The notes under the pieces are model-generated. The model was not told the DNA's origin, ran no database searches, and was given only the letters and a program-made list of their open reading frames with translations. This document shows, in pieces, positions 16,953 to 47,362 of a stretch of 64,000 nt of DNA; position 1 is the first letter of the stretch; each line of letters begins with the position of its first letter. The stretch comes from Chromohalobacter sp. 11-W. Lineage in GTDB: Bacteria; Pseudomonadota; Gammaproteobacteria; Pseudomonadales; Halomonadaceae. A program made the translations under genes and the position numbers. Location of the stretch: NCBI RefSeq assembly GCF_029889905.1, contig NZ_JARANZ010000001.1, positions 124,001-188,000 of the forward strand. The letters are read 5' to 3'.

Positions 16953-18116
<1,164 letters not shown>

Positions 18117-18203
18117 CACGCGCCCGAAGCCGCGCGAAAGGCGCTTGGTACGCGCCTGTGGTGATTCATCGCGGCCGGGCGCGCCCCGACGTCGTTCCAT
18201 CCG

Positions 18204-18224
18204 CCGGCGGCTCGATGCCGCCGG
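18204..18224 (+). other. hairpin in the frmA-frmB spacer
   Basis: A perfect 8-bp stem ccggcggc / gccgccgg with loop tcgat lies 18 bases before frmB. No T-run follows, so it is more likely an RNA processing or stabilising element than a terminator. Confidence 0.5.
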
Positions 18225-18242
18225 TCTCTCAGGGAGAGCACC

Positions 18243-19100
18243 ATGACCATGTCCGAATCGCTGGAGCTGGTCTCCGCCACCAAGTCGTTCGGCGGTTGGC
18301 TGAAGCGCTACAAGCACCACTCGCGTGCACTCGATTGCGAGATGATCTTTGCCATTTATCTGCCACCTCAGGCGGAAACCGACAAGGTGCCGCTGCTGTG
18401 GTGGCTCTCGGGGCTGACCTGCAACGACGAGAACTTCATGCAAAAAGCCGGCGCACAACGCGTGGCTGCCGAGCTGGGCATGGCTATCATCTGCCCGGAC
18501 ACCAGTCCGCGTGGCACCGATCTTCCCGGAGAACACGACAGCTATGACTTCGGCTCCGGCGCGAGCTTCTACGTCAATGCTAACCAGGCGCCGTGGTCCA
18601 AGCACTATCGCATGTACGACTACGTTACCGAGGAGCTGCCCTCGGTGGCGCGTCAGCATTTCCCGCTCAACGGAAGGGAAGCCATCAGCGGACATTCCAT
18701 GGGCGGTCATGGCGCGCTGGTGTTGGCCTTGCGTCAACCTGGACGTTACGCCTCGGTTTCGGCGCTCGCACCGGTGGTCAACCCCATCGTCTCGCCCTGG
18801 GGACAGAAGGCCTTCACGGCCTACCTGGGTGAGGATCATGGCAAATGGACGCAATACGACGCCTGCGAGCTGATTGCCAAGGGTGCCTCGCGCCAGCCGC
18901 TGTTCATCGATCAGGGTGAGGCGGATAACTTCCTCGACGAACAGCTAATGCCTGAGCGCATCGAAGCCACCTGTGAGAAGCATGACCATCCGCTGACTCT
19001 GCGCCGTCAGCCGGGCTACGATCATAGCTACTTCTTCATCGCCACCTTCATCGAAGAGCATCTGCGCTATCATGCCGAGCATCTGCAGCGAAAGCGTTAG
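18243..19100 (+). CDS. frmB: S-formylglutathione hydrolase
   Basis: It hydrolyses S-formylglutathione to formate and glutathione, completing the glutathione route. The 285-residue esterase-D fold has the oxyanion segment LSGLTCNDENF (56-66), nucleophile S152 in GHSMGGHG, an acid in DQGEADNF near 225, and the catalytic His in YDHSYFF near 262. It starts MTMSESLELV; a second ATG three codons in is equally possible. It follows frmA, and the formate goes to the formate dehydrogenase encoded 15 kb downstream. A terminator follows. Confidence 0.94.
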   Translation: MTMSESLELVSATKSFGGWLKRYKHHSRALDCEMIFAIYLPPQAETDKVPLLWWLSGLTCNDENFMQKAGAQRVAAELGMAIICPDTSPRGTDLPGEHDSYDFGSGASFYVNANQAPWSKHYRMYDYVTEELPSVARQHFPLNGREAISGHSMGGHGALVLALRQPGRYASVSALAPVVNPIVSPWGQKAFTAYLGEDHGKWTQYDACELIAKGASRQPLFIDQGEADNFLDEQLMPERIEATCEKHDHPLTLRRQPGYDHSYFFIATFIEEHLRYHAEHLQRKR

Positions 19101-19214: not shown

Positions 19215-19359
19215 GATAGCGTGAGACGACGCTTTTAGATACGTTGAGGGGGCGCCTTCTCGTCACACTCAAGGCGTTGAAACCAACTTCCTACAATGAC
19301 AATACACCCCTGGTGAAGCACTACCAGTGGCTCCGAACGTGACCCGAGGAGAACCGCTG

Positions 19360-20493
19360 ATGGCCATGACGAGCGATCGTCCCGCGCCGCCTACCGCCCC
19401 TGATGCGCCGCTGCGTTTGGGCTTCTTGTTAATGGATAATTTCACGCTGATCTCGTTGGCCTCGGCGGTGGAGCCGTTGCGCATGGCCAATCAGTTGGCG
19501 GGGCGTGAACTCTACCAATGGACCACGCTGAGTACGGACGGCGAGGCGGTACGAGCCAGCGATGGCTTGCTGATCACGCCCGATAACGGCATGCACGAGC
19601 CGTTGGCGCTCGACATGGTGTTCGTGTGTGGCGGTGTCGGCATCCAGCGTCATGTCACGCGTGAGCATGTGCTGTGGCTGCAGGCGCAGGCGCGCCAGTC
19701 GCGACGCATCGGTGCGCTATGTACCGGCAGTTGGGCGCTGGCCAAGGCAGGGCTGCTCGATGGCTATGAATGCAGCATTCATTGGGAGTTCCAGGCCGCC
19801 GCACAGGAAGCCTACCCGCGTGCCACGCTGACCACCCGCTTGTTCTCCATCGATCGCGACCGCGCCACAGCCTCCGGCGGGACCGCGCCGCTGGACATGA
19901 TGCTGACGTTGATCGCCCGCGATCATGGCCGCGAGCTATCGGCGGCGATCTCCGACATGTTCATCTGCGATCGCATGCGCGGCGAACAAGACCAGCAGCG
20001 TGTGCCGCTGCGGCATGTTCTGGGCACCAGCCAGCCCAAGTTGCTCGAGATCGTGGCGCTGATGGAGGCCAATTTGGAAGAGCCCATTGCCCTCGACGAG
20101 CTAGCGAACTATGTAAACGTCTCGCGTCGCCAACTCGAGCGTCTCTTCCAGAAGTACTTGAGTTGCTCGCCATCGCGCTATTACCTCAAGCTGCGCTTGA
20201 CCCGCGCCCGACAGCTGCTGCGCCAGACCTCGATGTCGATCATCGAAATCGCCTCGGTTTGCGGGTTCGTTTCCACACCGCATTTTTCCAAGTGCTATCG
20301 GGAATACTTCGGCACGCCGCCGCGTGACGAACGCTTGACGCGTCTGACGAGCGCCAGCGTGACGCTGACGCCCGCCAACCTCACAGCGGGCAATGAAGAC
20401 GACGCCTATGTTGCACCGCGCGCCTCCAGCGCCATGCAGGCACTAGCCCAGGCGCAAGGCGAACCCACCTACGCGAGTGTGCACTTGAGATAG
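19360..20493 (+). CDS. gbdR: AraC-family activator with DJ-1/PfpI-like domain, GbdR-like
   Basis: The 377-residue protein has an N-terminal class-I amidotransferase-like (DJ-1/PfpI) sensor domain (about 20-190), including IGALCTGSWALAKAG with its nucleophile-position Cys. A C-terminal AraC double helix-turn-helix (about 225-330) contains LANYVNVSRRQLERLF and IIEIASVCGFVSTPHFSKCY. This architecture and the neighbours match GbdR of Pseudomonas, which senses glycine betaine and dimethylglycine and activates gbc, dgc, sox and sdaB genes. ATG 19360 was chosen because GAGGAGAA lies upstream; a GTG at 19327 extends the frame without family support. The tail after residue 330 is unconserved. Sister regulators (CdhR, ArgR types) share the fold, so the symbol rests partly on context. 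Confidence 0.82.
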   Translation: MAMTSDRPAPPTAPDAPLRLGFLLMDNFTLISLASAVEPLRMANQLAGRELYQWTTLSTDGEAVRASDGLLITPDNGMHEPLALDMVFVCGGVGIQRHVTREHVLWLQAQARQSRRIGALCTGSWALAKAGLLDGYECSIHWEFQAAAQEAYPRATLTTRLFSIDRDRATASGGTAPLDMMLTLIARDHGRELSAAISDMFICDRMRGEQDQQRVPLRHVLGTSQPKLLEIVALMEANLEEPIALDELANYVNVSRRQLERLFQKYLSCSPSRYYLKLRLTRARQLLRQTSMSIIEIASVCGFVSTPHFSKCYREYFGTPPRDERLTRLTSASVTLTPANLTAGNEDDAYVAPRASSAMQALAQAQGEPTYASVHLR

Positions 20494-20686: not shown

Positions 20687-21664
20687 ATGACCGCGCAAGC
20701 ACTACACGACGACGCCATCGTTATCGATGGTCTGATCATCGCCAAATGGAACCGCGAACTACTCGAAGACATGCGCCGGGGCGGTTTGACCGCTGCCAAC
20801 TGCACCGTCTCGGTATGGGAAGGGTTTCAGGCCACCGTCGATAATATCGTCCAGACCAACGCGCTACTTGCGGCGAGTGACGACCTGGTGCGGCCCGTGC
20901 ACACCACCGCCGATATCACCCGTGCCAAGGAAGAAGGCAAGACGGGCATCATCTACGGCTTCCAGAACGCCCATGCCTTCGAGGATCAGATCGGCTATGT
21001 CGAGGTCTTCAAGCGTCTCGGCGTGGGTATCGTGCAGATGTGCTACAACACCCAGAATCTGGTCGGCACCGGCTGTTACGAGCGCGACGGCGGGCTTTCC
21101 GGCTTCGGTCGCGAAATCGTCGCCGAGATGAATCGCGTGGGCGTGATGTGCGATTTATCCCACGTTGGCGAGACCACCTCTCGCGAGGTCATCGAAACGT
21201 CCGAGAAGCCGGTCTGCTACTCCCATTGCCTACCGTCCGGCCTCAAGGAACATCCACGTAACAAGTCCGACGCCGAGTTGCATTTCATCGCCGAGCATGG
21301 CGGTTTCGTCGGCGTGACCATGTTTACCCCCTTCCTGCGTGCCGGTGTCGACGCCACCGTAGACGACTACGTCGAAGCCATTGAATACGTCATGAACATC
21401 GTCGGCGAGGACGCCATCGGTATCGGCACCGATTTCACCCAGGGGCAGGATCAAGCCTTCTTCGAGTGGCTCACCCACGACAAGGGCTACGCCCGGCGCC
21501 TGACCAACTTCGGCACCATCATCAACCCCGAAGGCATTCGCACCATCGGTGAGTTCGGCAACCTCACCGAGGCACTCTTGCGACGCGGCATGAGCGAGCG
21601 ACAGGTGCGCAAGATCATGGGTGAGAACTGGATGCGAGTGCTCAAGGATGTCTGGGGCGCTTAA
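20687..21664 (+). CDS. renal dipeptidase (M19)-like protein of the dgc operon, metal site altered
   Basis: The 325-residue TIM-barrel protein resembles membrane dipeptidases (family M19). Conserved parts are DLSHVG (H159), the YSHCLP...HPRNKSD stretch (H180, R191) and IGTDF near 253, corresponding to ligands or substrate residues of the dinuclear zinc site. The canonical DGHND motif is DGLII here (14-18), and the bridging Glu motif G-x-E is GFQ (91-93), so three metal ligands appear lost. It is the first gene of the dipeptidase-like / DUF5943-like / dgcA / dgcB / etfAB series, an order also known from Pseudomonas betaine loci. Peptidase activity is doubtful; a role in dimethylglycine metabolism is inferred from place only. 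ATG 20687 was chosen for its GGGAG. Confidence 0.8.
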   Translation: MTAQALHDDAIVIDGLIIAKWNRELLEDMRRGGLTAANCTVSVWEGFQATVDNIVQTNALLAASDDLVRPVHTTADITRAKEEGKTGIIYGFQNAHAFEDQIGYVEVFKRLGVGIVQMCYNTQNLVGTGCYERDGGLSGFGREIVAEMNRVGVMCDLSHVGETTSREVIETSEKPVCYSHCLPSGLKEHPRNKSDAELHFIAEHGGFVGVTMFTPFLRAGVDATVDDYVEAIEYVMNIVGEDAIGIGTDFTQGQDQAFFEWLTHDKGYARRLTNFGTIINPEGIRTIGEFGNLTEALLRRGMSERQVRKIMGENWMRVLKDVWGA

Positions 21665-21836: not shown

Positions 21837-22382
21837 GTGACCAAGATGCCTCCCGAACTGCCCATCGAAGTGGATAGCGAGACCGGCGTGTGGACCACCG
21901 ATGCGCTCCCCATGCTCTACGTGCCGCGCCATTTCTTCATCAACAATCACGTCGCCGTGGAGCAGGCGCTGGGCATCGAGACCTACGCCGAGATTCTCTA
22001 CCAGGCTGGCTACAAGAGCGCTTGGCACTGGTGCGAAAAAGAAGCCGAATGCCATGGCCTGGAAGGTGTGGATGTCTTCGAACATTACATGAAGCGACTC
22101 TCGCAACGCGGCTGGGGGCGCTTCTTCACCGAGGCGTTCGATCTCGATGCGGGCAGCGCCCGCGTACGCCTGGAAGACAGCGCCTTCGTCTATCAACAGG
22201 GCAAGGTCGGCCACAAGGTGGATTACATGTTCACCGGCTGGTTTGCCGGGGCGATGGATCAGATTCTCGCCGCGCAAGGCAGTGAATTGCGCACCGTCGC
22301 CGAGCAGACCCAAAGCGCCGCCGAGCCGGGCTGCGATGTCGGTCGCTTCCAGGTCACGCCCCGCTCCCCAACTGCCGGCTGA
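21837..22382 (+). CDS. conserved protein of betaine loci (DUF5943-like, tentative)
   Basis: The 181-residue soluble protein starts with GTG (MTKMPPELPIEVDSETG) after GAGGA. The middle contains AEILYQAGYKSAWHWCEKEAE and GWGRF, and the C-terminal half has VGHKVDYMFTGWFAGAMDQ. This is reminiscent of small-ligand-binding 4-vinyl reductase-type domains, where a conserved fold surrounds a hydrophobic ligand. I associate it with the uncharacterised protein encoded between the dipeptidase-like gene and dgcA in Pseudomonas. No catalytic residues are evident. The strict neighbourhood suggests an accessory role in dimethylglycine demethylation or sensing. The gene ends 10 bases before dgcA, so the two are almost certainly co-translated. 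Confidence 0.75.
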   Translation: MTKMPPELPIEVDSETGVWTTDALPMLYVPRHFFINNHVAVEQALGIETYAEILYQAGYKSAWHWCEKEAECHGLEGVDVFEHYMKRLSQRGWGRFFTEAFDLDAGSARVRLEDSAFVYQQGKVGHKVDYMFTGWFAGAMDQILAAQGSELRTVAEQTQSAAEPGCDVGRFQVTPRSPTAG

Positions 22383-22392
22383 GGTTTCCAAG

Positions 22393-24477
22393 ATGGCATT
22401 CGACGCACTTTTCCAACCCATCGAGATCGGCAAGCTGACGATTCGCAACCGCGTGGTCAGCACCGCCCATGCCGAGGTCCATGCCACCGATGGCGGCATG
22501 ACCACCGATCGCTACGTCAAATACTACGAAGAAAAGGCCAAGGGCGGCGTGGGCCTTTCTATCTGCGGCGGCTCGTCCCCGGTGTCGATCGACAGCCCCC
22601 AAGCCTGGTGGAGCTCGGTGAACCTGGCCACCGACCGCATCATCCCGCACTTCCAGAACCTCTCGAATGCCGTTCACAAGCACGGCGGCAAGATCATGAT
22701 CCAGATCACCCACATGGGGCGTCGTTCACGGTGGGACGGTCATGACTGGCCGGTGCTGCTGTCACCCTCGGGGATTCGCGAGCCGGTGCATCGCTCGACC
22801 TGCAAGACCATCGAAGAAGAAGACATCTGGCGGATCATCGACGATTTCGCCCAGGGCGCGCGGCGCGCGAAAGAAGGCGGCCTGGATGGCGTCGAGCTTT
22901 CCGCCGTGCACCAGCATTTGATCGACCAGTTCTGGAGCCCGCGCGTCAACAAGCGTACCGATGAATGGGGCGGTAGCTTCGAGGGCCGCATGCGCTTCGG
23001 TATGGAAGTGCTCAAGGCGGTACGTGCTGAGGTCGGCGACGATTTCGTGGTCGGCATGCGCATCTGTGGCGACGAGTTTCACCCGGATGGTTTGACCCAC
23101 GACGATATGAAGGATATCGCCGCCTACTACGATGCCACCGGCCAGGTCGACTTCTTCGGCGTAGTGGGGTCGGGCTGCGATACTCACGACACCCTGGCCA
23201 ACGTGATCCCCAACATGGCCTATCCGCCGGAGCCGTTCCTGCACCTGGCGGCGGGCATCAAGGAAGTGGTCGGCGCGCCGGTGATCCACGCCCAGAACAT
23301 CAAGGACCCCACGCAGGCCAACCGCATTCTCGAAGGTGGCTACGTCGACATGGTGGGCATGACCCGCGCGCACATCGCCGACCCGCACCTGATCGCCAAG
23401 GTCCAGATGGGACAGACCGACCGGATCAAGCAGTGCGTGGGCGCCAATTACTGCATCGATCGCCAGTACCAGGGCCTCGATGTGTTGTGCATCCAGAATG
23501 CGGCGACCTCTCGCGAATACATGGGGCTGCCGCATGAGATCGAGAAAAGCGCCGGTCCCCAGCGGCGTGTGGTCGTCGTGGGCGGCGGGCCGGGCGGTAT
23601 GGAAGCGGCGCGCGTCGCCGCCGAGCGGGGACACTCGGTCACGCTGTTCGAAGGCGCCGAAGCATTGGGCGGACAGATCACACTCGCCGCCAAGGCGCCG
23701 CAGCGCGATCAAATCGCCGGCATCACGCGTTGGTTTCAGCTCGAGTTGACGCGTCTCAAGGTCGATGTCCGCCTGGGTGTGCACGCCGACGAGGCGACGA
23801 TCAATGACCTGCGCCCCGAGATCGTCGTCCTCGCCACCGGCGGCCAGCCGTTTCTGACCCAGGTGCCGGAATGGGGGTATACGGAAGACCGCAACGAAAG
23901 CTTGGTCGTCAGCGCCTGGGACATCCTCGGCGGTGAAGTGGCGCCGGGCCAGAACGTACTGGTGTTCGATACCATCTGCGAATTCACCGGGGTCTCGGTG
24001 GCCGACTACCTGGCCGACAAAGGCGCCCAGGTGGAGATCGTCACCGACGATACCAAACCCGGCGGTGCGGTCGGCGGCACGACCTTTCCCACCTACTACC
24101 GCAGCCTTTACGAGAAGGAGGTTATCATGACCTCGGACCTGGCGCTGCATAAGGTCTATCGCGAGGGTGCGTCACTGGTGGCGGTTCTGGAGAACGAATA
24201 CACCGGCGTCCAGGAAGAGCGCGTGGTCGATCAGGTGGTGGTCGAAAATGGCGTGCGCCCGGATGAATCGCTTTATTACGCGCTCAAGGAGCGCTCGCGA
24301 AATCACGGACAACTCGATCTCGAAGCGCTCTACGCCGCTGAGCCGCAACCTAGCCTGGCGACGCTGAATGACGACGCACAGACCGGCTTCCTGCTGTTTC
24401 GCGTGGGCGACTGTACGGCGCCGCGCAATACGCATGCGGCGATCTACGACGCTCTGCGGATTTGCAAGGACTTTTAA
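22393..24477 (+). CDS. dgcA: dimethylglycine demethylase subunit A (old yellow enzyme / TMADH-like flavoprotein)
   Basis: With DgcB it demethylates N,N-dimethylglycine to sarcosine. The 694-residue protein has an N-terminal FMN-binding TIM barrel (about 1-340, start MAFDALFQPIEIGKL), an Fe-S motif, and a C-terminal FAD/NAD-like domain beginning near VVVVGGGPGGMEAARV (about 395), the trimethylamine dehydrogenase layout. The Fe-S motif reads C348, A351, C354, C366: the second Cys of the C-x2-C-x3-C-x11-C pattern is Ala. The start at 22393 matches family N-termini; the open frame extends 82 codons further upstream inside the previous gene and is ignored. It lies between the DUF5943-like gene and dgcB. 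Confidence 0.9.
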   Translation: MAFDALFQPIEIGKLTIRNRVVSTAHAEVHATDGGMTTDRYVKYYEEKAKGGVGLSICGGSSPVSIDSPQAWWSSVNLATDRIIPHFQNLSNAVHKHGGKIMIQITHMGRRSRWDGHDWPVLLSPSGIREPVHRSTCKTIEEEDIWRIIDDFAQGARRAKEGGLDGVELSAVHQHLIDQFWSPRVNKRTDEWGGSFEGRMRFGMEVLKAVRAEVGDDFVVGMRICGDEFHPDGLTHDDMKDIAAYYDATGQVDFFGVVGSGCDTHDTLANVIPNMAYPPEPFLHLAAGIKEVVGAPVIHAQNIKDPTQANRILEGGYVDMVGMTRAHIADPHLIAKVQMGQTDRIKQCVGANYCIDRQYQGLDVLCIQNAATSREYMGLPHEIEKSAGPQRRVVVVGGGPGGMEAARVAAERGHSVTLFEGAEALGGQITLAAKAPQRDQIAGITRWFQLELTRLKVDVRLGVHADEATINDLRPEIVVLATGGQPFLTQVPEWGYTEDRNESLVVSAWDILGGEVAPGQNVLVFDTICEFTGVSVADYLADKGAQVEIVTDDTKPGGAVGGTTFPTYYRSLYEKEVIMTSDLALHKVYREGASLVAVLENEYTGVQEERVVDQVVVENGVRPDESLYYALKERSRNHGQLDLEALYAAEPQPSLATLNDDAQTGFLLFRVGDCTAPRNTHAAIYDALRICKDF

Positions 24478-24565: not shown

Positions 24566-24584
24566 CGCCGATGAGGTGAGTGCC

Positions 24585-26627
24585 ATGCTCGATATCCTCT
24601 TGCCGATACTGCTCTTCGCTGCCCTGGCAGTAGCAGCACTCGGCGCCTGGCGGCGTGTGCGCCTGTGGCGCCGGGGACGAGCGTCGCAGGTATCTGTCTT
24701 TCGCGGCCTGATCGCGATGCCGCGTCGTTATCTGGTCGACCTGCACCATGTGGTGGCGCGCGACAAGGTGATGGCCAATACCCACGTGGCCACCGCCGGC
24801 GGTTTCGTTGCGGCACTGGGGCTGGCGATCGTCGTCCACGGCCTGGGCCTCGCCGAGGGCGTATTGGGTTGGTTGCTGCTGGCGGCCAGCGCGACCATGT
24901 TCGCGGGTAGCCTGTTCGTCGTGCGGCGGCGGCGTAACCCACCGGCGCGCCTGTCGAAGGGTCCCTGGATGCGTCTGCCCAAGAGTCTGATGGCTTTCTC
25001 GCTGGGCATCTTCGTGGTCACCCTGCCGGCGGTGGGCGTGCTGCCCGCCGACGCCGGTGGCTGGCTGGTCGCGCTGGTGCTGGCTGCCGTGGTGGCCTGG
25101 GGCCTGGCGGAGCTGGTGGTCGGCATGACCTGGGGCGGGCCGATGAAGCATGCCTTTGCCGGCGCCTTGCATCTGGCCTTTCATCGCCGCCCTGAGCGCT
25201 TTTCCGATACGCAGCACGGTGGGTCTCCACCCACCGGCCTCAAGGCGCTCGATCTCGACGATGCCGAGGCACCATTGGGTGTCGGCCAACCCTCCGACTT
25301 CACCTGGAACCAACTGTTGGGCTTCGATGCCTGCGTGCAGTGCGGGCGCTGCGAAGCGGTTTGCCCTGCCTTCGCCGCGGGCCAACCGCTCAACCCCAAG
25401 AAGCTTATCCAGGACATGGTGGTGGGCATGGCCGGGGGGAGCGATGCCCAATATGCCGGTTCTCCCTACCCGTCACCCGAGCGCGGGGACCAGCCGGTCG
25501 GCGAGCACCAGGGCTCGCCGCATGGTCCTATCGTCGCGCCAGCCTCTACAAAAGACGGCAAGGCGTTGGTCGATGCCGAGACGCTGTGGTCCTGCACCAC
25601 CTGCCGGGCCTGTGTCGAGGAATGCCCGATGATGATCGAGCACGTCGATGCCATCGTCGACATGCGTCGTCATCTGACGCTCGAAGAAGGCGCGACACCC
25701 GGCAAGGGCGCCGAGGTAATCGACAACCTGATCGCCACCGACAACCCCGGCGGTTTCGACCCCGGCGGGCGGCTCAACTGGGCGGCGGATCTCGAACTGC
25801 CGTTGATGGCCGACGTCGAGCGCGCCGAGGTATTGCTGTGGTTGGGTGACGGCGTCTTCGATATGCGCAATCAGCGCACGCTGCGTGCCCTGGTCAAGGT
25901 ACTGCGCGCCGCCGATGTCGACTTCGCCGTGCTCGGCAATGAAGAGCGCGACAGTGGCGACGTGGCGCGTCGTCTCGGCGATGAGGCAACCTTCCAGTCG
26001 CTGGCGCGGCGCAATATCGCCACGCTTTCCCAGTACCGCTTCGATTGTGTCGTTACCTGCGATCCGCACAGCTTCCACGTGCTCAAGAACGAATACGGCG
26101 CCTTCTATCCCGAAGGGCAGGAAGCTGGCTACCCGGTCTGGCATCACAGCACCTTCATCAATCAGTTGATCGAGGCGGGTCGGTTGCGACTGGCGCCGGG
26201 CCAAGCGGCGCGTGTGACCTATCATGACCCTTGCTACCTGGGCCGCTACAACGGCGAATACGAAGCACCTCGCGCGGTGCTGCAAGCGCTGGGCGTCGAA
26301 CTGGTCGAGATGCAGCGCTCGGGCTATCGCTCGCGTTGCTGTGGCGGCGGTGGCGGGGCGCCAGTCACCGACATTCCCGGCAAGCAACGTATCCCCGACA
26401 TGCGCATGGGTGACGTGCGCGAGACTCAGGCCGAGCAGGTGGTGGTGGGCTGCCCGCAATGCACGGCCATGTTCGAAGGGGTCGTCCCGCCAGCGGGCGA
26501 CGAAGAGGTTGCGGTCAAGGACATCGCCGAGATGGTCGCCGCTGCGCTGGATACCACGCCGGCGGCGACATCATCTGCGCCGCGTGATACCTCGACCGCG
26601 CAGGCTACCGAGGAGGTCATGTCATGA
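24585..26627 (+). CDS. dgcB: dimethylglycine demethylase subunit B (membrane Fe-S electron carrier)
   Basis: The 680-residue protein belongs to the heterodisulfide-reductase-like Fe-S oxidoreductases. The first 190 residues hold several membrane helices. Two 4Fe-4S motifs follow: CVQCGRCEAVCP near 250 and CTTCRACVEECP near 337. The C-terminal CCG-type domains contain HDPCYLGRYNGEYEAPR, SRCCGGGGG and GCPQCTAMFE, which can bind further clusters. It probably passes electrons from DgcA or the ETF to the quinone pool. ATG 24585 follows GAGGTGAG; an in-frame GTG at 24576 is less likely. Its stop overlaps the etfA start (ATGA). Confidence 0.88.
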   Translation: MLDILLPILLFAALAVAALGAWRRVRLWRRGRASQVSVFRGLIAMPRRYLVDLHHVVARDKVMANTHVATAGGFVAALGLAIVVHGLGLAEGVLGWLLLAASATMFAGSLFVVRRRRNPPARLSKGPWMRLPKSLMAFSLGIFVVTLPAVGVLPADAGGWLVALVLAAVVAWGLAELVVGMTWGGPMKHAFAGALHLAFHRRPERFSDTQHGGSPPTGLKALDLDDAEAPLGVGQPSDFTWNQLLGFDACVQCGRCEAVCPAFAAGQPLNPKKLIQDMVVGMAGGSDAQYAGSPYPSPERGDQPVGEHQGSPHGPIVAPASTKDGKALVDAETLWSCTTCRACVEECPMMIEHVDAIVDMRRHLTLEEGATPGKGAEVIDNLIATDNPGGFDPGGRLNWAADLELPLMADVERAEVLLWLGDGVFDMRNQRTLRALVKVLRAADVDFAVLGNEERDSGDVARRLGDEATFQSLARRNIATLSQYRFDCVVTCDPHSFHVLKNEYGAFYPEGQEAGYPVWHHSTFINQLIEAGRLRLAPGQAARVTYHDPCYLGRYNGEYEAPRAVLQALGVELVEMQRSGYRSRCCGGGGGAPVTDIPGKQRIPDMRMGDVRETQAEQVVVGCPQCTAMFEGVVPPAGDEEVAVKDIAEMVAAALDTTPAATSSAPRDTSTAQATEEVMS

Positions 26628-27892
26628 GCGATCTTCCGCGTCGCGATCCCCGCCAGGAATGGATCGCCCGTAATCGTCTGCATCCGCGCCATGCTGAAGT
26701 GCTCCTGGCGACGGGCCAGGGCGCGGCCAGCGAATGGTGGGGCCCTGGCGGTCTCGTGCGCAGGAATCCGCACGCGGTGGGGTTCGTCGGCCCCAATGGC
26801 GTGAAGCGCATCGACCGTAGCGGCACGCAACAAGGTGCGGGTGGCGGCGGTGCGACGACACCGGCTGCCGAGCGCAAGCCGTTGGTCGAGATCGAAGCGC
26901 CCGCGTTCATGGTCGCGGTGGTGCCGGACATGGCTGGCGGCCGCCTGAGTGGGCATGACCGGGATCTGCTCGGCCTGGCGCGCCAGCTCGCCGATGCCGA
27001 TCCTGCGGCTCGGGGCGCGGTGGTGGCCGTGGTTTTCGGTCCCCACAAGGAGGCGAACTTCGGTGAAGCGGGCATCGACCGTCTGCTGCATCTCGATTCA
27101 CCGGAGGTCGCAGGCTATGCCCCTGAGGCGCGCCTGGGAGCGCTGATCATGGCCGAGGAGTCGTGGGTACCACGCCATTGGCTGCTGCCGGACTCCAAGC
27201 TGGACGGCGGAGAGTTGGGAAGACGCTTGGCGGCGCGTCTCGGTGAGCGACCGGCGACGGGTGTCTGGCAGGCCGAAGCGGACGCCGAGGTGGCCACGGG
27301 CTGGCATTGCACGGCGCGCGGTGCGGCCGGGTCGTTGGATATTCGGCGTCCCTTGCCGCGCCTCGCCCTGGCCTTGGCTGAATGTGCCGAGCCGGTGAGC
27401 GAAACGCGCCATGCCGCCGCCGAGCTGGCCTTACCTCAGCCGTTGCCGTCGACCTTGTCGCGCATTCAGGATCTCGGTCAGGTGAGTGTCGACCCATCAG
27501 GCGTGGCCTTGTCCGAGGCGGAATTCATTCTCTCTGCCGGCAATGGCGTCAAGGATTGGCCAGGCTTCCACCATGCCGCCGAGGTATTGGGGGCCACCGA
27601 AGGCGCCTCACGCGTGGCGGTGGATGATGGTTTCATGGCCCGCGACCGTCAGGTGGGGGCCACCGGCACCTGGGTGACGGCGAGGGTCTATGTGGCCGTG
27701 GGTATCAGCGGCGCCATCCAGCATCTGCAGGGTATTCAGACCTGCGACAAGGTGGTGGCGATCAACATGGATCCCGGTTGCGACATGATCAAGCGTGCCG
27801 ATCTCGCGGTAATCGGGGACTCGACTCAAATACTCGAGGCGTTGGTCACCTTGGTGGCACAGGCACGAGAGGAGAAACGCGATGCAGCCTGA
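26624..27892 (+). CDS. electron transfer flavoprotein alpha subunit, betaine-locus type
   Basis: This is an EtfA homologue: the C-terminal FAD-binding domain has VGATGTWVTARVYVAVGI, SGAIQHLQGIQ and a closing INMDPGCDMIKRADLAVIGD segment. At 422 residues it is about 100 longer than housekeeping EtfA because of an N-terminal extension before the nucleotide-binding fold (which begins near 88, PAFMVAVVP). It overlaps dgcB by 4 bases and etfB by 11, so expression is coupled. The dedicated ETF likely carries electrons for dimethylglycine demethylation. The longer N-terminus may decide partner choice. Confidence 0.88.
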   Translation: MSDLPRRDPRQEWIARNRLHPRHAEVLLATGQGAASEWWGPGGLVRRNPHAVGFVGPNGVKRIDRSGTQQGAGGGGATTPAAERKPLVEIEAPAFMVAVVPDMAGGRLSGHDRDLLGLARQLADADPAARGAVVAVVFGPHKEANFGEAGIDRLLHLDSPEVAGYAPEARLGALIMAEESWVPRHWLLPDSKLDGGELGRRLAARLGERPATGVWQAEADAEVATGWHCTARGAAGSLDIRRPLPRLALALAECAEPVSETRHAAAELALPQPLPSTLSRIQDLGQVSVDPSGVALSEAEFILSAGNGVKDWPGFHHAAEVLGATEGASRVAVDDGFMARDRQVGATGTWVTARVYVAVGISGAIQHLQGIQTCDKVVAINMDPGCDMIKRADLAVIGDSTQILEALVTLVAQAREEKRDAA

Positions 27893-28685
27893 ATCCGCCA
27901 TGACACCAGGACTCGAAGTGACGGTGCTGGTCTCCGTCGGCCGCCATCCGCTGACGGGAAGAGCGCGGCGTGCCGATCAGGACGCACGGGGTGTGGAGCT
28001 GGCGCGCTCCTTGGCGAATGCCCAGGTGCGCCTGTTGCATGCCGGCATGCGCGATGAGAGCAGCGAAGCTGCATTGCGCGGCTATCTGGGCATGGGCTTC
28101 ACCGAATTGTCGCTACTTGAGCAACCCGAGGGCGCCGATGTGTTGCCTGCGCTTGCCGAGGCCCTGGATGCGATGTCGCCGCACCTGGTGATCGCCGGCG
28201 AACGTGCCGAACGGGGCGAAGGCTCGGGGCTGTTGCCCTACCTGCTTGCCGAACGCCTTGGCTGGCCTCTGGTGAGTGGCCTGGCGGCGGTGGAAAGCGT
28301 CGAGGAGGGCATGGCGACCTTGTTGCAGGCCCTGCCGCGTGGGCAGCGGCGGCGACTCAAGGTTCGTCTGCCCGTCATCGTCACCGTCGACGATGCGGCC
28401 CCCGCGCCGCGCCAGAGCGCCTACGGGCCGGCGCGACGCGGCGCGTTCGAGACGGCGGCAGGGCCGGTGAGCGATGATGAACAATGGGCCGCATGGCAAG
28501 TGCAACCCGCGCGCCAGCGTCCCAAACGCCTCAAGATCGTCAAGGCCGCTTCGGCGCGGGACCGCTTCAAGGCCGCCGCTGCCAAGGCCGAAGGCGGCAG
28601 TGGGCAGGTGCTGACGGACGTGACCCCGACTCAAGGCGCCGAGGCGATCTTGACGCTACTGCGTGAAGAGGACGTCTTGCGTTGA
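27882..28685 (+). CDS. electron transfer flavoprotein beta subunit, betaine-locus type
   Basis: The 267-residue EtfB homologue starts (MQPESA)MTPGLEVTVLVSVGRHP, with the AMP-binding side represented by a GERAERGEGSGLLPYLLAERLG region (about 107-128). It overlaps the etfA stop and has GAGGAGA upstream of ATG 27882; ATG 27900 is an alternative. Together with the preceding gene it forms the heterodimeric FAD/AMP electron carrier of the dgc operon. Similarity to classical EtfB is weak in places, as is usual for this subfamily. It is probably the last gene of the operon, since 144 bases follow before the next start. Confidence 0.85.
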   Translation: MQPESAMTPGLEVTVLVSVGRHPLTGRARRADQDARGVELARSLANAQVRLLHAGMRDESSEAALRGYLGMGFTELSLLEQPEGADVLPALAEALDAMSPHLVIAGERAERGEGSGLLPYLLAERLGWPLVSGLAAVESVEEGMATLLQALPRGQRRRLKVRLPVIVTVDDAAPAPRQSAYGPARRGAFETAAGPVSDDEQWAAWQVQPARQRPKRLKIVKAASARDRFKAAAAKAEGGSGQVLTDVTPTQGAEAILTLLREEDVLR

Positions 28686-32121: not shown

Positions 32122-33315
32122 ATGAGTGCAGCCAACCGCGGCGTGATCTACATGGGCGCCGGCCATGTCGAGGTCCAGTCGATCCCTTTTCCCGAGCTGG
32201 CGCTGGGCAATCGCAAATGCGAGCACGGCGTGATTCTCAAGGTCATCACTACCAACATCTGTGGCAGCGACCAGCACATGGTGCGTGGCCGCACTACCGC
32301 GCCGAGCGGCATGGTGCTCGGGCATGAAATCACCGGCGAAGTCGTCGAGTGCGGACGCGACGTCGAGTTCATCGGCGTCGGCGATGTCGTCTCGGTGCCC
32401 TTCAACATCGCTTGCGGGCGTTGCCGCAACTGCAAGGAAGGCCAGACTGGCATCTGCCTCAACGTCAATCCCGCGCGTCCGGGTGCCGCGTATGGTTATG
32501 TCGACATGGGCGGTTGGGTCGGTGGCCAGACCGAGTACGTCATGGTGCCCTATGCGGACTTCAATCTGTTGAAGTTTCCCGACCGCGATATCGCCATGGA
32601 CAAGATCCGCGATTTGACGTTGCTGTCCGATATCTTCCCCACTGGCTTTCACGGCTGCGCCACCGCCGGTGTCGGCCCCGGCAGCACCGTCTACATCGCT
32701 GGGGCCGGCCCGGTCGGTCTGGCCGCAGCTGTTTCCGCCCAACTGCTGGGCGCCGCCTGTGTCATCGTCGGCGATATGAACCCGCAGCGTCTCGATCAGG
32801 CCAAAAGCTTCGGCTGCGAGACCCTGGACCTGCGCCAGGACACGCCGATGGCGGACATGCTGGAACCCATCCTCGGTGCACGTGAAGTGGACAGTGCGGT
32901 GGATGCGGTCGGCTTCGAGGCGCGTTGTCATGGCCACAACCACGCGCACGAGCAGCCCGCCACGGTGCTCAATGCCTGCATGGACGTCACCCGGGCAGGC
33001 GGTCAGATCGGCATCCCGGGACTGTACGTTACCGAAGATCCGGGTGCCGAGAGCCAGGAAGCCAAACACGGCAACCTGTCGATGCGTCTTGGCCAGGGCT
33101 GGGCCAAGTCACATTCCTTCCATACCGGCCAGTGCCCGGTGATGAAGTACCACCGGCAACTGATGCAGGCGATCCTGTTCGACAAGGTGAACATCGCCGA
33201 TGCGGTCAATGTCGAGGTCATCTCCCTGGACGAAGCACCGCGCGGCTACGCGGACTTCGACGGAGGCGTGGCCAAGAAATTCGTCATCGATCCGCACGGT
33301 AACGTGGCCGCCTGA
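32122..33315 (+). CDS. fdhA: glutathione-independent formaldehyde dehydrogenase
   Basis: This zinc, NAD-dependent enzyme oxidises formaldehyde to formate without glutathione. At 397 residues it matches the Pseudomonas putida enzyme type. Visible features are catalytic-zinc Cys in TTNICGSDQHM (near 46), GHEITGEV near 67, structural zinc Cys in CGRCRNCKEGQTGIC (near 97-111), and the nucleotide motif AGAGPVGLAAAV near 180. The C-terminal SMRLGQGWAKSHSFHTGQCP segment is characteristic of this subfamily and absent from FrmA. ATG 32122 lies after AAAGGA. With FrmA it gives the cell two independent formaldehyde routes. A hairpin follows at 33329-33349. Confidence 0.92.
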   Translation: MSAANRGVIYMGAGHVEVQSIPFPELALGNRKCEHGVILKVITTNICGSDQHMVRGRTTAPSGMVLGHEITGEVVECGRDVEFIGVGDVVSVPFNIACGRCRNCKEGQTGICLNVNPARPGAAYGYVDMGGWVGGQTEYVMVPYADFNLLKFPDRDIAMDKIRDLTLLSDIFPTGFHGCATAGVGPGSTVYIAGAGPVGLAAAVSAQLLGAACVIVGDMNPQRLDQAKSFGCETLDLRQDTPMADMLEPILGAREVDSAVDAVGFEARCHGHNHAHEQPATVLNACMDVTRAGGQIGIPGLYVTEDPGAESQEAKHGNLSMRLGQGWAKSHSFHTGQCPVMKYHRQLMQAILFDKVNIADAVNVEVISLDEAPRGYADFDGGVAKKFVIDPHGNVAA

Positions 33316-33349: not shown

Positions 33350-33475
33350 TAACATGCAACGAGGCGCCTGTCTCAGGACAGGATGGCCGATCTCCGGGGG
33401 CTGTTCTTTATGGCGGTCCGTCCCGCCGGACAGCGGATTCCCGGGCAAGTGCCTACCGATAACAATGAGCACGCC

Positions 33476-35194
33476 ATGACCGTCGAGACCCTCACTCCCA
33501 AGCGTCGCTTCCGCGGCAAGCTGCGTGGTCGTGATCTGCCCCCCGTCGCCCTGGCGGCGCTTCGCCAACTCCTTGGCGATGAGCGCGAGGACGGCGAACG
33601 GCGGCGCCGCGATCTCCTGATCGAGCATCTGCATACCCTCCAGGATGCCCATGGATACCTATCGTTGGTGACGCTCCGAGCGTTGGCCGCCTACATGAAT
33701 TTGCCCATGGCGGCGGTTTATGAGACGGCGACCTTTTATGCGCACTTCGAGGTGGTCCACGACGACCAGGCGCCACCGCCCGAGGTGACGGTGCGGGTCT
33801 GCGATTCGCTTTCCTGCCGACTGGCCGGCGCCGAAGCGCTCAAGGAGGAACTGACGGCCGGGGTCGATCCAGAGGCGGTCAAGGTGGTACGTGGCCCCTG
33901 CATGGGCCGCTGCGATACCGCGCCGGTGGTGGAAGTGGGGCATCACCATGTGCTTTTCGCCACTCACGAAGGGGTGGGGGCGGTGATCGATACCGGCCAC
34001 TACCATCCCGAGGCGATTCTCTGGCAGCGTCTGGCGGACTATCGCGCTGAAGGCGGCTATGGGTTGCTTGCCGATTGCCACGAGGGACGCATCACGGTCG
34101 AGGCGCTGATGCAGACGCTGGAAGCCGCCAACCTGCGTGGCCTGGGTGGGGCCGGCTTCCCGACCTTCAAGAAATGGTATTTCGTGCGCCAGGAGGAAGG
34201 TCCGCGTTACTGCGCCATCAACGCCGACGAAGGCGAGCCCGGCACCTTCAAGGACCGCGTCTACCTGGAGCGCTCACCGCATCGTTTCCTCGAAGGGGCC
34301 CTGGTCAGTGCCTGGGCGGTGGAGGCCGAGGCGCTCTACATCTATCTACGTGACGAGTATCCAGGTCTTCACCGGGTGCTGCACGAGGCCATCGCCGAGC
34401 TCGAGGCCACCGGCCTGGTGGCACCGGGCTATATCGTGATGCGCCGTGGCGCCGGCGCCTATATCTGCGGCGAGGAGTCGGCGATGATCGAATCGCTGGA
34501 AGGCAAGCCCGGCAAGCCTCGCCATCGTCCCCCCTTCGTTGCCCAGAAGGGGCTCTTCGACCGCCCCACCTTGGTAAACAACGTGGAGACCGTCTACTGG
34601 ATCCCGTCGATATGGGAGAAGAGCGCCGACTGGTTCGCCGGTCATGGCCGTCATGGCCGGGTGGGGTTGCGCAGTTTTTCGGTCTCCGGTCGAGTCAAAC
34701 ATCCTGGTGTGCACCTGGCCCCGGCGGGCATCACCCTCAATGAGTTGATCGAGGAGTATTGCGGCGGCATGGCTGAGGGCCACCGCTTGGCTGCCTACCT
34801 GCCCGGTGGCGCCTCGGGTGGGATACTCCCGGCGAGCAAGGCCGATATCCCGCTGGACTTCGATACCCTCCAGGCGGATGGCTGCTTTATCGGCTCGGCC
34901 GCTGTGATCGTGCTGTCCGATCGGGACGATCTGCGCGCTGTGGCCACCAATCTGCTGGCCTTCTTCGCCGACGAGTCCTGTGGCCAATGTACCCCTTGCC
35001 GGGTGGGCACCGAGAAGATGCTGACCCTGCTCGAGGGCGACGAATGGGACGCTGCGACCCTGACGCGCCTCTCCCAAGTGATGATGGATGCGTCCATCTG
35101 TGGCCTCGGCCAGGCGGCCCCCAACCCGGTATTGGGGCTGCTCAAAGATTTCCGCGGTGAACTCGCCGCTCAGAACGTCATCATCAAGGGATAA
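33476..35194 (+). CDS. NAD-dependent formate dehydrogenase, fused gamma/beta (NuoE-NuoF-like) subunit
   Basis: The 572-residue protein joins two parts usually found as separate subunits (FdsG and FdsB). The N-terminal NuoE-like domain (about 1-170) has 2Fe-2S Cys in VCDSLSCRLAG and GPCMGRCDTAP. The NuoF-like domain has the FMN/NADH region LRGLGGAGFPTFKKW (about 217) and a 4Fe-4S site SCGQCTPCRVGTEKM near 500. It reduces NAD+ with electrons from the catalytic subunit encoded 13 bases downstream. ATG 33476 (MTVETLTPKRR) was chosen over a longer unsupported frame, though its ribosome-binding site is weak. Confidence 0.9.
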   Translation: MTVETLTPKRRFRGKLRGRDLPPVALAALRQLLGDEREDGERRRRDLLIEHLHTLQDAHGYLSLVTLRALAAYMNLPMAAVYETATFYAHFEVVHDDQAPPPEVTVRVCDSLSCRLAGAEALKEELTAGVDPEAVKVVRGPCMGRCDTAPVVEVGHHHVLFATHEGVGAVIDTGHYHPEAILWQRLADYRAEGGYGLLADCHEGRITVEALMQTLEAANLRGLGGAGFPTFKKWYFVRQEEGPRYCAINADEGEPGTFKDRVYLERSPHRFLEGALVSAWAVEAEALYIYLRDEYPGLHRVLHEAIAELEATGLVAPGYIVMRRGAGAYICGEESAMIESLEGKPGKPRHRPPFVAQKGLFDRPTLVNNVETVYWIPSIWEKSADWFAGHGRHGRVGLRSFSVSGRVKHPGVHLAPAGITLNELIEEYCGGMAEGHRLAAYLPGGASGGILPASKADIPLDFDTLQADGCFIGSAAVIVLSDRDDLRAVATNLLAFFADESCGQCTPCRVGTEKMLTLLEGDEWDAATLTRLSQVMMDASICGLGQAAPNPVLGLLKDFRGELAAQNVIIKG

Positions 35195-35207
35195 AGGGAG
35201 ACAGAAC

Positions 35208-38045
35208 ATGAGCGAACAGAGCTCAAACACAAGTTTCACCCTGACCCTGGATGGCGTGAAAGTGAGCGCCAATGCGGGGGAGACCCTCTGGCAGGTGGCC
35301 AAGCGCGCCGGCGAGACCATTCCTCACTTGTGTTACAAGGACGCCAGCGGTTATCGCGCCGACGGCAACTGCCGCGCCTGCATGGTGGAAGTCGAAGGCG
35401 AGCGCGCCCTGGCTGCCAGTTGCCTGCGCGAGGCTGTCCCTGACATGGTGGTCCATAGCGCCAGCTCCGAGCGGGCCCGCACGGCTCGGGAAGGCGTCAT
35501 GGAGCTGCTGCTCGCCGACCAGCCGGCGCGCGACGATAGCCCCGACCGCTCGAGTCATTTCTGGGCCATGACCGATCAACTGGCCATCGATGCCTCCGCA
35601 GTGCGCCAGCGGTTACCGGCGCGGGCCGACCGAGATGCGCCCACGGTGAATCATGTGCGTCTTCCCGAGCATTCCCTCAGGGCCTCGTCGACCCATGACG
35701 CCAGTCATTCGGCGATGAACGTCAATCTAGACGCCTGCATCGAGTGCAACCTCTGCGTGCGCGCCTGTCGCGAAGTACAGGGCAATGACGTCATCGGGTT
35801 GGCCCATCGTGGCGGTGCTTCCAAGATCGTTTTCGATTTCGACGACCCCATGGGCGAGAGCACTTGCGTGGCCTGTGGCGAGTGCGTTCAGGCCTGTCCG
35901 ACTGGAGCGCTGATGCCGGCGACCCTGGTCGACGAGGTAGGCCGTGGCGATTCAGCGGTGGCCGACCGTACCGTCGACTCCGTCTGTCCCTACTGCGGGG
36001 TAGGCTGCCAGCTCACCTACCATGTCAAGGACGATGCGATTCTCTTCGTCGAGGGGCGCGAGGGGCCTTCCAATCAGAATCGCCTGTGCGTCAAAGGGCG
36101 CTTCGGCTTCGACTATCCGCGCCATCCGTCGCGGCTCACCACGCCGCTGATCCGTCGTCCTGGGGTAGCCAAGGGGCTCGACCCTGATTTCGATCCGGCT
36201 CAGCCGCTGACCCACTTCCGCGAGGCGAGTTGGGAAGAGGCGCTGGACCTGGCCGCCGGGGGGCTTGCCAATCTCAAGGCAAATCATGGCCCCGATGCCC
36301 TGGCCGGTTTCGGCAGCGCCAAATGCTCCAATGAGGAAGCTTGGCTGTTCCAGAAACTGGTGCGCACCGGCTTCGGCTCCAATCACGTCGACCACTGCAC
36401 CCGACTCTGCCATGCAAGCTCGGTGGCCGCGCTCATGGAATGTATCGGCTCGGGGGCGGTGACGGCTTCCTTCATGCAGGCCCTCGAGGCCGAGGTCGTG
36501 ATCCTCACCGGCTGCAACCCGGCGATCAACCACCCGGTGGCGGCCACCTACTTCAAGCAGGCGGCCAGGAATGGCACCAAGCTTATCATCCTCGACCCGC
36601 GCGGCCAGTCGCTGGATGCCTACGCCCACCGCAGCGTGCGCTTTACCCCGGGCGGCGACGTCTCGTTCTACAATGCCTTGCTCAACGTCATCATCAGCGA
36701 AGAGCTTTTTGATCAGGCCTATATCGATGCCCACACCGAGGGCTTCGAAGCACTCAAGGCCCATGTGCGCGACATGACGCCGGAGGCGATGTCACCCGCC
36801 TGTGGCGTCGAGCCCGAACTTATTCGCGAGCTGGCGCGGCTTTATGCGCAGGCCGAGCGGGCGATGATCTTCTGGGGCATGGGCATCTCCCAGCACGTGC
36901 ATGGCACCGACAATGCCCGCTGCTTGATCTCGCTGGCCTTGGCCTGCGGTCAGACCGGCCGCCCCGGCACTGGTCTGCATCCGCTGCGCGGTCAGAACAA
37001 CGTGCAGGGCGCCTCCGATGCCGGCCTGATTCCCATGGTGCTGCCCGATTACCAGCCGGTGGGCGACGCCCAGGTGCGCAGTGCCTTCGAGGAGCTATGG
37101 AACACGCCGCTGGACGAAACGCCGGGGCTCACCGTGGTCGAAATCATGAATGCCATCGCGGATGGCAGCATCAAGGGGATGTACATTCTCGGCGAGAATC
37201 CCGCGATGTCCGACCCGGATCTCGATCATGCACGCAAGGCGCTTGGCAAGCTCGAGCATCTTGTGGTGCAGGATCTGTTCGTCACCGAGACCGCACAGTA
37301 CGCCGATGTGATCCTGCCGGCCTCGAGCTGGCCGGAGAAAGACGGCAGCGTGACCAATACCAACCGCCAGGTGCAGCTCGGCCGGGCCGCTGTGCCACTG
37401 CCCGGTGAAGCCAAGCCCGATTGGTGGATCATCCAGGCGCTTGCCAATCGCCTGGGGCTGGGGTGGCATTACACGCATCCGCGTGAGGTGTTCGCCGAAA
37501 TGAAGCAGGGCATGGCCTCGTTCGACCATATCTCCTGGGAGCGTCTCGAGCGAGAAAGTTCGGTGACCTATCCCTGTCCCGCCGAGGATGCCCCCGGTGC
37601 CGACGTGGTGTTCTCTGACGCCTTCCCCACCGCGAGCGGACGGGCGACGTTCACGCCGACCCGGCCATTGCCGCCGGATGAACCCATCGATGACGACTAT
37701 CCCACGGTGTTGATTACCGGGCGCCAACTGGAACACTGGCACACCGGCTCCATGACCCGGCGTACCCGGGTACTCGATGACCTCGAGCCCGAAGCGGTGG
37801 CAAGCCTTGCCCCGTCGGAGTTGGGCCGCCTGCGGTTGTCACCGGGCGAGCCGATCACCATCACCACCCGCCGCGGCAGTATCACCTTGAAGACACGTAC
37901 CGACCCGTTGATGCAGCAAGGCATGGTGTTCGTGCCTTTCTGCTATCTGGAAGCGGCGGCCAATATCCTCACCAACTCGGCGCTGGACCCGTTCGGCAAG
38001 ATCCCCGAGTTCAAGTACGCCGCTAGCCGGTTGAGCGCAAAGTGA
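35208..38045 (+). CDS. NAD-dependent formate dehydrogenase, catalytic (molybdopterin) subunit
   Basis: This 945-residue subunit oxidises formate to CO2. From the N-terminus there is a 2Fe-2S domain (HLCYKDASGYR, NCRACMVEVEG), a C-terminal-of-NuoG-like Cys/His region, and two 4Fe-4S motifs (CIECNLCVRACRE, CVACGECVQACPTGA). The bis-MGD domain opens with CPYCGVGCQL, and the Mo-ligand Cys is C401, followed by His in CTRLCHASS. The C-terminal MGD-binding domain contains TGRQLEHWHTGSMTRR. AAGGGAG precedes the start. No fdhD- or fdsD-like maturation gene follows, so these lie elsewhere. Formate comes from FdhA, FrmB and PurU. Confidence 0.93.
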   Translation: MSEQSSNTSFTLTLDGVKVSANAGETLWQVAKRAGETIPHLCYKDASGYRADGNCRACMVEVEGERALAASCLREAVPDMVVHSASSERARTAREGVMELLLADQPARDDSPDRSSHFWAMTDQLAIDASAVRQRLPARADRDAPTVNHVRLPEHSLRASSTHDASHSAMNVNLDACIECNLCVRACREVQGNDVIGLAHRGGASKIVFDFDDPMGESTCVACGECVQACPTGALMPATLVDEVGRGDSAVADRTVDSVCPYCGVGCQLTYHVKDDAILFVEGREGPSNQNRLCVKGRFGFDYPRHPSRLTTPLIRRPGVAKGLDPDFDPAQPLTHFREASWEEALDLAAGGLANLKANHGPDALAGFGSAKCSNEEAWLFQKLVRTGFGSNHVDHCTRLCHASSVAALMECIGSGAVTASFMQALEAEVVILTGCNPAINHPVAATYFKQAARNGTKLIILDPRGQSLDAYAHRSVRFTPGGDVSFYNALLNVIISEELFDQAYIDAHTEGFEALKAHVRDMTPEAMSPACGVEPELIRELARLYAQAERAMIFWGMGISQHVHGTDNARCLISLALACGQTGRPGTGLHPLRGQNNVQGASDAGLIPMVLPDYQPVGDAQVRSAFEELWNTPLDETPGLTVVEIMNAIADGSIKGMYILGENPAMSDPDLDHARKALGKLEHLVVQDLFVTETAQYADVILPASSWPEKDGSVTNTNRQVQLGRAAVPLPGEAKPDWWIIQALANRLGLGWHYTHPREVFAEMKQGMASFDHISWERLERESSVTYPCPAEDAPGADVVFSDAFPTASGRATFTPTRPLPPDEPIDDDYPTVLITGRQLEHWHTGSMTRRTRVLDDLEPEAVASLAPSELGRLRLSPGEPITITTRRGSITLKTRTDPLMQQGMVFVPFCYLEAAANILTNSALDPFGKIPEFKYAASRLSAK

Positions 38046-39440: not shown

Positions 39441-39452
39441 GGGAGAACCACC

Positions 39453-39845
39453 ATGTTTCATATCTACTGCCCCTATTGCGAAGAATTGCGCGAGGAAGAG
39501 GAGTTCCATCCCAAGGGCGAGGCGCACATCGCGCGTCCCGAGGAGCCGGAGGCTTGCAGCGATGAGGAATGGGGCGATTACCTGTTCTTCCGCGACAACC
39601 CGCGCGGCATCCATCACGAGATGTGGCTGCACGCGGTGGGCTGTCGCAAGTTCTTCAACATCACGCGCAATACCGTGAGTTACGAGATCCTCGAAACCTA
39701 CAAGATGGGCGAGCAGCCGACAGTGGGCGCCGAGCATCTGGCGCGTGAGGAAAAAACCGCGAGCGTGCAGGCTGCCGAGGGCGGCCAGCAGACCGTAGGT
39801 GCCAGTGACGCCGCCCTGGCGTCGGTCAAGGGAGCACAGGCATGA
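39453..39845 (+). CDS. soxD: sarcosine oxidase delta subunit
   Basis: The 130-residue zinc-binding subunit has Cys in YCPYCEE near the N-terminus, then His and Cys near HAVGCRKFFNI, as in known SoxD proteins. The length exceeds the usual about 100 residues because of a tail after residue 95 rich in Ala, Gln and Gly. GGGAG precedes the ATG. The stop overlaps the soxA start by 4 bases. It has a structural role in the tetramer. Confidence 0.92.
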   Translation: MFHIYCPYCEELREEEEFHPKGEAHIARPEEPEACSDEEWGDYLFFRDNPRGIHHEMWLHAVGCRKFFNITRNTVSYEILETYKMGEQPTVGAEHLAREEKTASVQAAEGGQQTVGASDAALASVKGAQA

Positions 39846-47221: not shown

Positions 47222-47362
47222 GAAGGCATCCTCTTCGTGCGCCGTGTCGGGTAACGGGGGCGCCATGACATTGAGTGAGTGTGCGTGAGAGGCGTGAGTG
47301 ACACGAAGTGTGGCGTATTGCCATCAGTGGGGATTGTCTGCCCGCGACATTGGCCGATGCCG

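Follow-up and report, generated by a model that had tools for sequence, protein, structure and literature searches.

The 64,000-nucleotide stretch of Chromohalobacter sp. 11-W analyzed here (the window) contains an operon with the gene order gbdR, M19, DUF5943, dgcA, dgcB, etfA, etfB, all on the forward strand. The first gene (19327–20493) encodes GbdR, a regulator of betaine and choline metabolism that scored above the cut-off of NF052371. The second (20687–21664), an open frame of 325 amino acids plus stop, encodes the M19-family protein that is the subject of this work. It is followed by genes for a free-standing DUF5943 domain (21837–22382, profile match), the dimethylglycine demethylase flavoprotein DgcA (22393–24477; FMN oxidoreductase and pyridine nucleotide-disulfide domains), and the Fe-S and DUF3483 protein DgcB (24576–26627, domain match); the domains of DgcA and DgcB fit the description in the available part of PMC12093977. 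The alpha (26624–27892) and beta (27882–28685) subunits of an electron transfer flavoprotein, above the cut-offs of NF051845 and NF051844, respectively, complete the operon.

Within about 32 kb (17007–48608), gbcAB, dgcAB, soxBDA, two formaldehyde dehydrogenases, a formate dehydrogenase, and purU occur together. Two genes for formaldehyde disposal precede the operon on the same strand, S-(hydroxymethyl)glutathione dehydrogenase (17007–18116, above the TIGR02818 cut-off) and S-formylglutathione hydrolase (18243–19100, above the TIGR02821 cut-off). Downstream lie a glutathione-independent formaldehyde dehydrogenase (32143–33312), a NuoF-like gene (below its cut-off) with formate dehydrogenase alpha (33383–38042), soxB, soxD, and soxA for sarcosine oxidation (38292–42907, forward), a soxG-like gene assigned by position alone (42903–43586, forward), purU for deformylation of formyl-THF (43531–44439, forward), gbcA (45938–47266, reverse), and gbcB (47574–48608). 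By its predicted functions, the gene set is the betaine pathway together with its own one-carbon disposal. Opposite the S-(hydroxymethyl)glutathione dehydrogenase gene, the reverse strand carries a 613-codon open frame (17013–18854) that is most likely a high-G+C artifact. A predicted dipeptidase gene ahead of dgcAB has already been published for V. natriegens and for P. aeruginosa (PMC12093977, available part), and in several strains of Pseudomonas root exudates induced a “membrane dipeptidase, dgc operon” along with dgcAB (PMC8079746, available part).

The DUF5943 sequence gave a best E value of only 0.07 against the PDB, and its likely fold was seen from the model alone (pLDDT 92.0). The model resembled the phenol-sensor domains of DmpR (Z 18.1, rmsd 3.0, 171 residues aligned), MopR, and PoxR (Z about 17–18); a vinyl-4-reductase family protein scored lower (Z 12.4). 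Judging by this model, the DUF5943 protein may bind a small molecule. A free-standing sensor-like domain is unusual content for a catabolic operon.

The protein encoded by 20687–21664 matched PF01244 (Peptidase_M19) with 307.6 bits against a curated cut-off of 26, and it was the sole M19 match found in the whole genome. By this match and by its M19 barrel fold, it is a member of peptidase family M19 by descent. The preliminary description had reported DGLII in place of the DGHND motif, GFQ at the position of the bridging Glu, and the retention of H159, H180, R191, and the Asp of IGTDF. These residues read as claimed, both in the sequence (D14-G15-L16-I17-I18, G91-F92-Q93, H159, H180, R191, D249) and in alignment. 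Equivalences were tested by profile-profile alignment of 48 relatives (alignment A2, from which L216 was omitted because of stop codons in its stretch) with 13 canonical M19 proteins (alignment A3), in all of which D53, H55, D57, E160, H187, H229, H250, R261, and D356 are invariant. DGLII fell on DGHND, Q93 on the bridging Glu, and Y120 on H187, while H159, H180, R191, and D249 fell on the canonical His, His, Arg, and Asp. The H-x-D of strand 1 is absent, with L16 and I18 in its place. We take the canonical sites to be H20, D22, E125, H152, H198, H219, R230, and D288 of human DPEP1, and Y120 to occupy the position of its catalytic H152. Three metal ligands are indeed replaced, as originally stated, but that tally missed a fourth active-site difference, the change of a further conserved His to Y120. 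The features of the M19 dinuclear dipeptidases are therefore divided: the two second-site His residues, the Arg, and the barrel Asp are present, and the H-x-D, the bridging Glu, and the catalytic His are absent. Where product names are given on the inspected records of these proteins, they read dipeptidase or membrane dipeptidase; because of the predicted active site, this label is very probably wrong.

Homologues were collected from overlapping samples of 274, 145, and 398 genomes, from plasmid records (261 with a match, from which 11 regions were taken, one of these being unannotated), and from 80 named genome loci. Once near-identical duplicates had been dropped, 188 distinct proteins remained. 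Clade I was defined as the 123 proteins sharing 44% identity or more with the window protein, and clade II as 38 proteins with the motif YNNQ. Q93, Q117, D156, H159, H180, R191, and D249 were identical in all 161 proteins of both clades, down to about 33% identity, and E45 was found in 160. L16 and D14 were each present in all 160 proteins with a letter at the position; position 18 was I, C, T, V, or Y and never Asp, and the H-x-D was absent from all 160 readable proteins. Y120 was also found in 161 of 161, although in clade II it is fixed by construction because the YNNQ motif used for selection contains it. The active site is altered, and it is conserved in its altered form. Since the pattern is invariant over 161 distinct proteins, it is neither chance nor sequencing error, and the substitutions are fixed in the clade. 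Outside clades I and II, Q93 occurred in six further proteins of the 188. The remaining 21 carried Glu at position 93 in 20 cases, and His (15) or Tyr (5) at position 120; in 13 of them the alignment has gaps at positions 14 and 16, and their H-x-D is readable outside that alignment.

A tree of 82 rows was computed with columns 16, 18, 93, and 120 removed beforehand. It supported clade I (100/97, 25 rows), clade II (100/96, 30 rows), and their union (99/95, 55 rows), and Q93 was fixed in all 55 rows of the union. Over the whole tree, whose deep part is unsure owing to the long-branched rows L016, L056, and L015, the exchange between Gln and Glu at position 93 took three changes across 61 Gln and 20 Glu rows (bootstrap range 2–3; starred branches force two), and a single origin of Q93 is therefore unsupported. 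Four M19 genes (L013, L014, L019, and L020) have D-A/C-H-x-C/G for D-x-H-x-D, keep the Glu, and have Tyr at position 120; they are possibly intermediate in ligand loss. Viral contigs gave 16 pattern matches and no relatives. Phage-labeled records gave 11 M19 matches, including MT836338.1 and MT837169.1 and several from human feces; the five matches listed showed 26–35% identity. These records could be mislabeled bacterial DNA.

The closest solved chain is PDB 2I5G, an “amidohydrolase” of Pseudomonas aeruginosa (E 1e-186, 80% identity) that we take to be PA5396. In the sequence alignment it carries the same substitutions as the window protein. Our literature search found no paper on 2I5G, and no mention of PA5396 in the part of the matching papers that it covered. 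The AlphaFold model of the window protein (pLDDT 92.9) superimposed on 2I5G with Z 55.5 and rmsd 0.7. In the model, L16 and I18 belong to strand 1 and H180 to strand 6, and Q93, Y120, H159, and D249 come directly after strands 3, 4, 5, and 8, respectively; strand ends are the usual ligand places in the amidohydrolase barrel fold. Besides 2I5G, the fold search returned 16 solved M19 entries at Z 35.6 to 39.8, with the next family at 17.2.

Linkage to dgcAB was examined at several scales. In a sample of 145 genomes from one order, the M19 orthologue (at least 74% identity), DUF5943, and DgcA (at least 78%) were found in exactly the same 18 genomes, and the link with DgcAB is therefore real in that sample. 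Of the 108 clade I loci, 83 have DUF5943 next to the M19 gene and 74 have DgcA near it; these values are not natural frequencies because the loci are biased to near relatives (80 best-ranked matches and 20 chosen from best matches). Gene calling at the loci made some wrong picks; in the window, for example, it chose a frame antisense to DUF5943. Ten whole genomes, mostly picked for the absence of dgcA from the neighborhood of the M19 gene, were searched for DgcA. Five (G781, G784, G560, G733, and G783) encode a DgcA of 62–81% identity and two (G581 and G663) have only paralogues of 40–45%; no DgcA was found at E ≤ 1e-100 in G674, G672 (both estimated to be 100% complete), and the Thauera MAG G782. 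The M19 protein was present in all nine genomes examined for it (G560 lay outside this count), including these three. The genome search found DUF5943 missing from G782 and G663.

The M19 gene also occupies other settings. In G733 and G783 it follows soxB- and soxA-like genes, and DUF5943 lies beside dgcA elsewhere; G781 and G784 have a second M19 copy adjoining a transporter gene, which appears to be of MHS type. The gene follows soxBDAG in Azospirillum, and in Methylobacterium it stands with DUF5943, near solA. A branch at about 46–52% identity has a flavin oxidoreductase alongside and mostly also a DsbA-like protein and a Pot-type ABC transporter. Hydantoinase/oxoprolinase genes were within reach in four loci and lay outside the M19 operon in those inspected.

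Clade II loci (35 of 40 candidates) were counted after L090, L091, L099, L138, and L140 had been dropped as farther groups by motif; L091, L138, and L140 fall in farther groups in the tree too. Within 6 kb of the M19 gene, every one of the 35 encodes a relative of one and the same protein, about 530 amino acids long (for example L092:5204–6799, reverse, and L089:10052–11707, forward). This partner had no Pfam match (two members scanned) and no PDB match at E ≤ 1 (one member), and it is a candidate new enzyme of N-methylpyridinium catabolism. Other neighbors, among the 35 loci, were aldehyde dehydrogenase (24), a LysR regulator (20), a BCCT transporter (17), DUF3726 (12), Ldh_2 (9), RidA (8), and a Pot-type ABC protein (8). 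The L089 row runs soxB-, soxD-, and soxA-like genes, a fourth gene, aldehyde dehydrogenase, M19, the 530-amino-acid protein, a small gene, and Ldh_2. Its soxB-like gene is above the curated cut-off, and the soxA-like (1114 against 1164 bits) and soxD-like (77 against 116.5 bits) genes are below theirs. In Ensifer the row continues with an aminotransferase, a succinate-semialdehyde dehydrogenase, and two RidA genes. The gene content, together with the chemistry, suggests that the clade II clusters serve N-methylpyridinium (homarine-like) catabolism and that an N-methyl amino acid dehydrogenase belongs to them. A role of Mgd in the catabolism of homarine is described in PMC13390433 (available part).

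The M19 gene had been described as locked into the dgc operon. This holds for clade I insofar as DgcA is near in 74 of 108 loci; it fails for clade II, which has no dgc operon and only a DgcA-like fragment of 44% identity in one of 35 loci. The suggestion that the protein serves as a partner of DgcAB, taken as its only role, was set aside: three of the ten genomes keep the M19 protein without DgcA, the gene has moved to sox genes in G733 and G783, and clade II shares the replacements in the absence of the operon. The observation is more general than first stated, and the interpretation that came with it is borne out only by half.

Our preferred reading, which we put forward tentatively, is that the M19 barrel has been repurposed and is catalytically active, that it binds no more than one metal, and that its substrates are probably N-acyl (formyl-like) N-methyl amino acids. 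Degeneration is argued against by the identity of seven pocket positions in 161 of 161 proteins and by E45 in 160, and the residues peculiar to the subfamily (E45, Q93, Q117, and Y120) are fully or nearly invariant. The ligand replacements and the invariant rest of the pocket agree with the early proposal of a repurposed barrel that could hold a single metal or none at all. We infer hydrolysis with no more than one divalent metal, which would sit between Q93, H159, and H180, in the position that corresponds to the one metal of E. coli NagA, with D249 as the general base. One second-site metal is workable in the amidohydrolase fold because the NagA enzymes of E. coli and V. cholerae have a single metal. 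In M19 dipeptidases the Arg equivalent to R191 holds the substrate carboxylate, and R191 would do likewise. As substrate we propose an N-methyl amino acid that bears a small N-acyl group, formyl- or carbamoyl-like, a class that is the simplest in view of the gene settings. Settings with N-methyl amino acids are common to the loci, as the preliminary description had supposed: dgcAB, sox genes, and solA in clade I and, in clade II, aldehyde dehydrogenase, Ldh_2, and BCCT genes.

In the dgc/sox setting, the substrate could be N-formylsarcosine or a near relative, which would yield sarcosine and formate. It might originate from further oxidation of the dimethylglycine carbinolamine or from damage by the formaldehyde of the pathway. 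In clade II, ring opening of an N-methylpyridinium (homarine-like) compound between C5 and C6 would give an N-formyl-N-methyl intermediate, from which the amidohydrolase would free formate; with reduction by an Ldh_2 enzyme, N-methylglutamate would result. The formaldehyde and formate dehydrogenases and purU in the same window speak for this reading, as does the presence of the M19 protein without DgcA. Several points speak against it. Gln in place of the Glu of NagA weakens the metal site, and we know of no tested precedent for Gln at that place. That the protein and DgcA occur in precisely the same 18 genomes of 145 would also fit a helper of DgcAB. The available part of PMC12093977 describes no formyl intermediate in the breakdown of dimethylglycine, and “formylsarcosine” was not found in the part of the matching papers covered by our literature search.

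The retained residues could also do acid-base chemistry with no metal at all. Here Y120, E45, Q93, D249, and the two His residues would act on a small betaine-derived compound in lactone, hemiaminal, or iminium handling or in an isomerization. Metal-free members of the amidohydrolase superfamily such as LigI are known, and the distant fold matches include structures of COG3618 and of 2-pyrone-4,6-dicarboxylate hydrolase. Three ligands are replaced, with Gln in place of Glu the charge by which metals are usually held is lost, and E45, Q117, and Y120, which are peculiar to the subfamily, vary hardly or not at all. We nevertheless consider a metal-free enzyme doubtful, as H159 and H180, which are purely second-site metal ligands, are kept in 161 of 161 proteins and a metal is the simpler explanation. 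An ordinary dinuclear dipeptidase in which E45, D14, or other residues supply the missing ligands is very improbable. The near invariance of E45 and D14 speaks for it, but the bridging Glu and the further conserved His are gone, and D14 is no replacement ligand because canonical M19 proteins have that Asp, before the H-x-D, as well.

Loss of catalysis altogether, with the barrel binding a metabolite or scaffolding DgcAB, DUF5943, or both, would account for the frequent proximity of the three genes in clade I and for their occurrence in the same 18 genomes. It is harder to reconcile with a remaining pocket that is wholly invariant, with the lack of detectable DgcA in G674, G672, and G782 and of DUF5943 in G782 and G663, with the sox-linked genes of G733 and G783, which stand away from both partners, and with clade II, which has neither DgcA nor DUF5943 as an operon. 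We think such a pseudoenzyme rather questionable. Returning to the active, repurposed barrel, its widest form would make clades I and II one new class of N-acyl-N-methyl amino acid amidohydrolase, with a Gln-lined site and one metal or none, shared by betaine/sarcosine and N-methylpyridinium (homarine-like) catabolism, and would mean that the breakdown of dimethylglycine includes a formyl intermediate or a step of formyl repair. This we regard as unlikely in full; if true, current descriptions of the dimethylglycine pathway lack that intermediate or step.

Half of the usual zinc-binding residues are lost and the rest of the pocket is unchanged, which suggests a changed enzyme and not a dead one. 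In many Proteobacteria the gene accompanies the oxidation of dimethylglycine and sarcosine, which points to a missing step of a common pathway. The comparison of two clades yields a concrete candidate substrate class, and the existing coordinates of 2I5G, an orthologue from which no differences were found, bear on the metal question.

Among known systems, the M19 membrane or renal dipeptidases (human DPEP1, 1ITQ; Sco3058, 3ID7; GliJ, 5LWZ) share the fold at Z 38.6 to 39.4. They have PF01244, the two His residues, the Arg, and the barrel Asp in common with the window protein, in which the H-x-D, the bridging Glu, and one further His are replaced. Human DPEP3 (6VGO, Z 37.0) is likewise an M19 barrel with an altered active site, and it has no bacterial operon. 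It is a member of the family without dipeptidase activity and has been proposed as a pseudoenzyme; its substitutions differ from those of the window protein. In the NagA enzymes of E. coli and V. cholerae, according to the available part of PMC6016474, the first motif HXH has become QXN and a single metal works with a catalytic Asp, so that NagA (1YMY and 1YRR; Z 17.0 and 16.8) resembles the window protein in having lost the first metal motif and kept the two second-site His residues and the catalytic Asp. The family is remote, its Z scores are tied with those of phosphotriesterases, and its substrate is a sugar. Because NagA keeps Glu where the window protein has Q93, the resemblance is a likeness in working and not one of membership.
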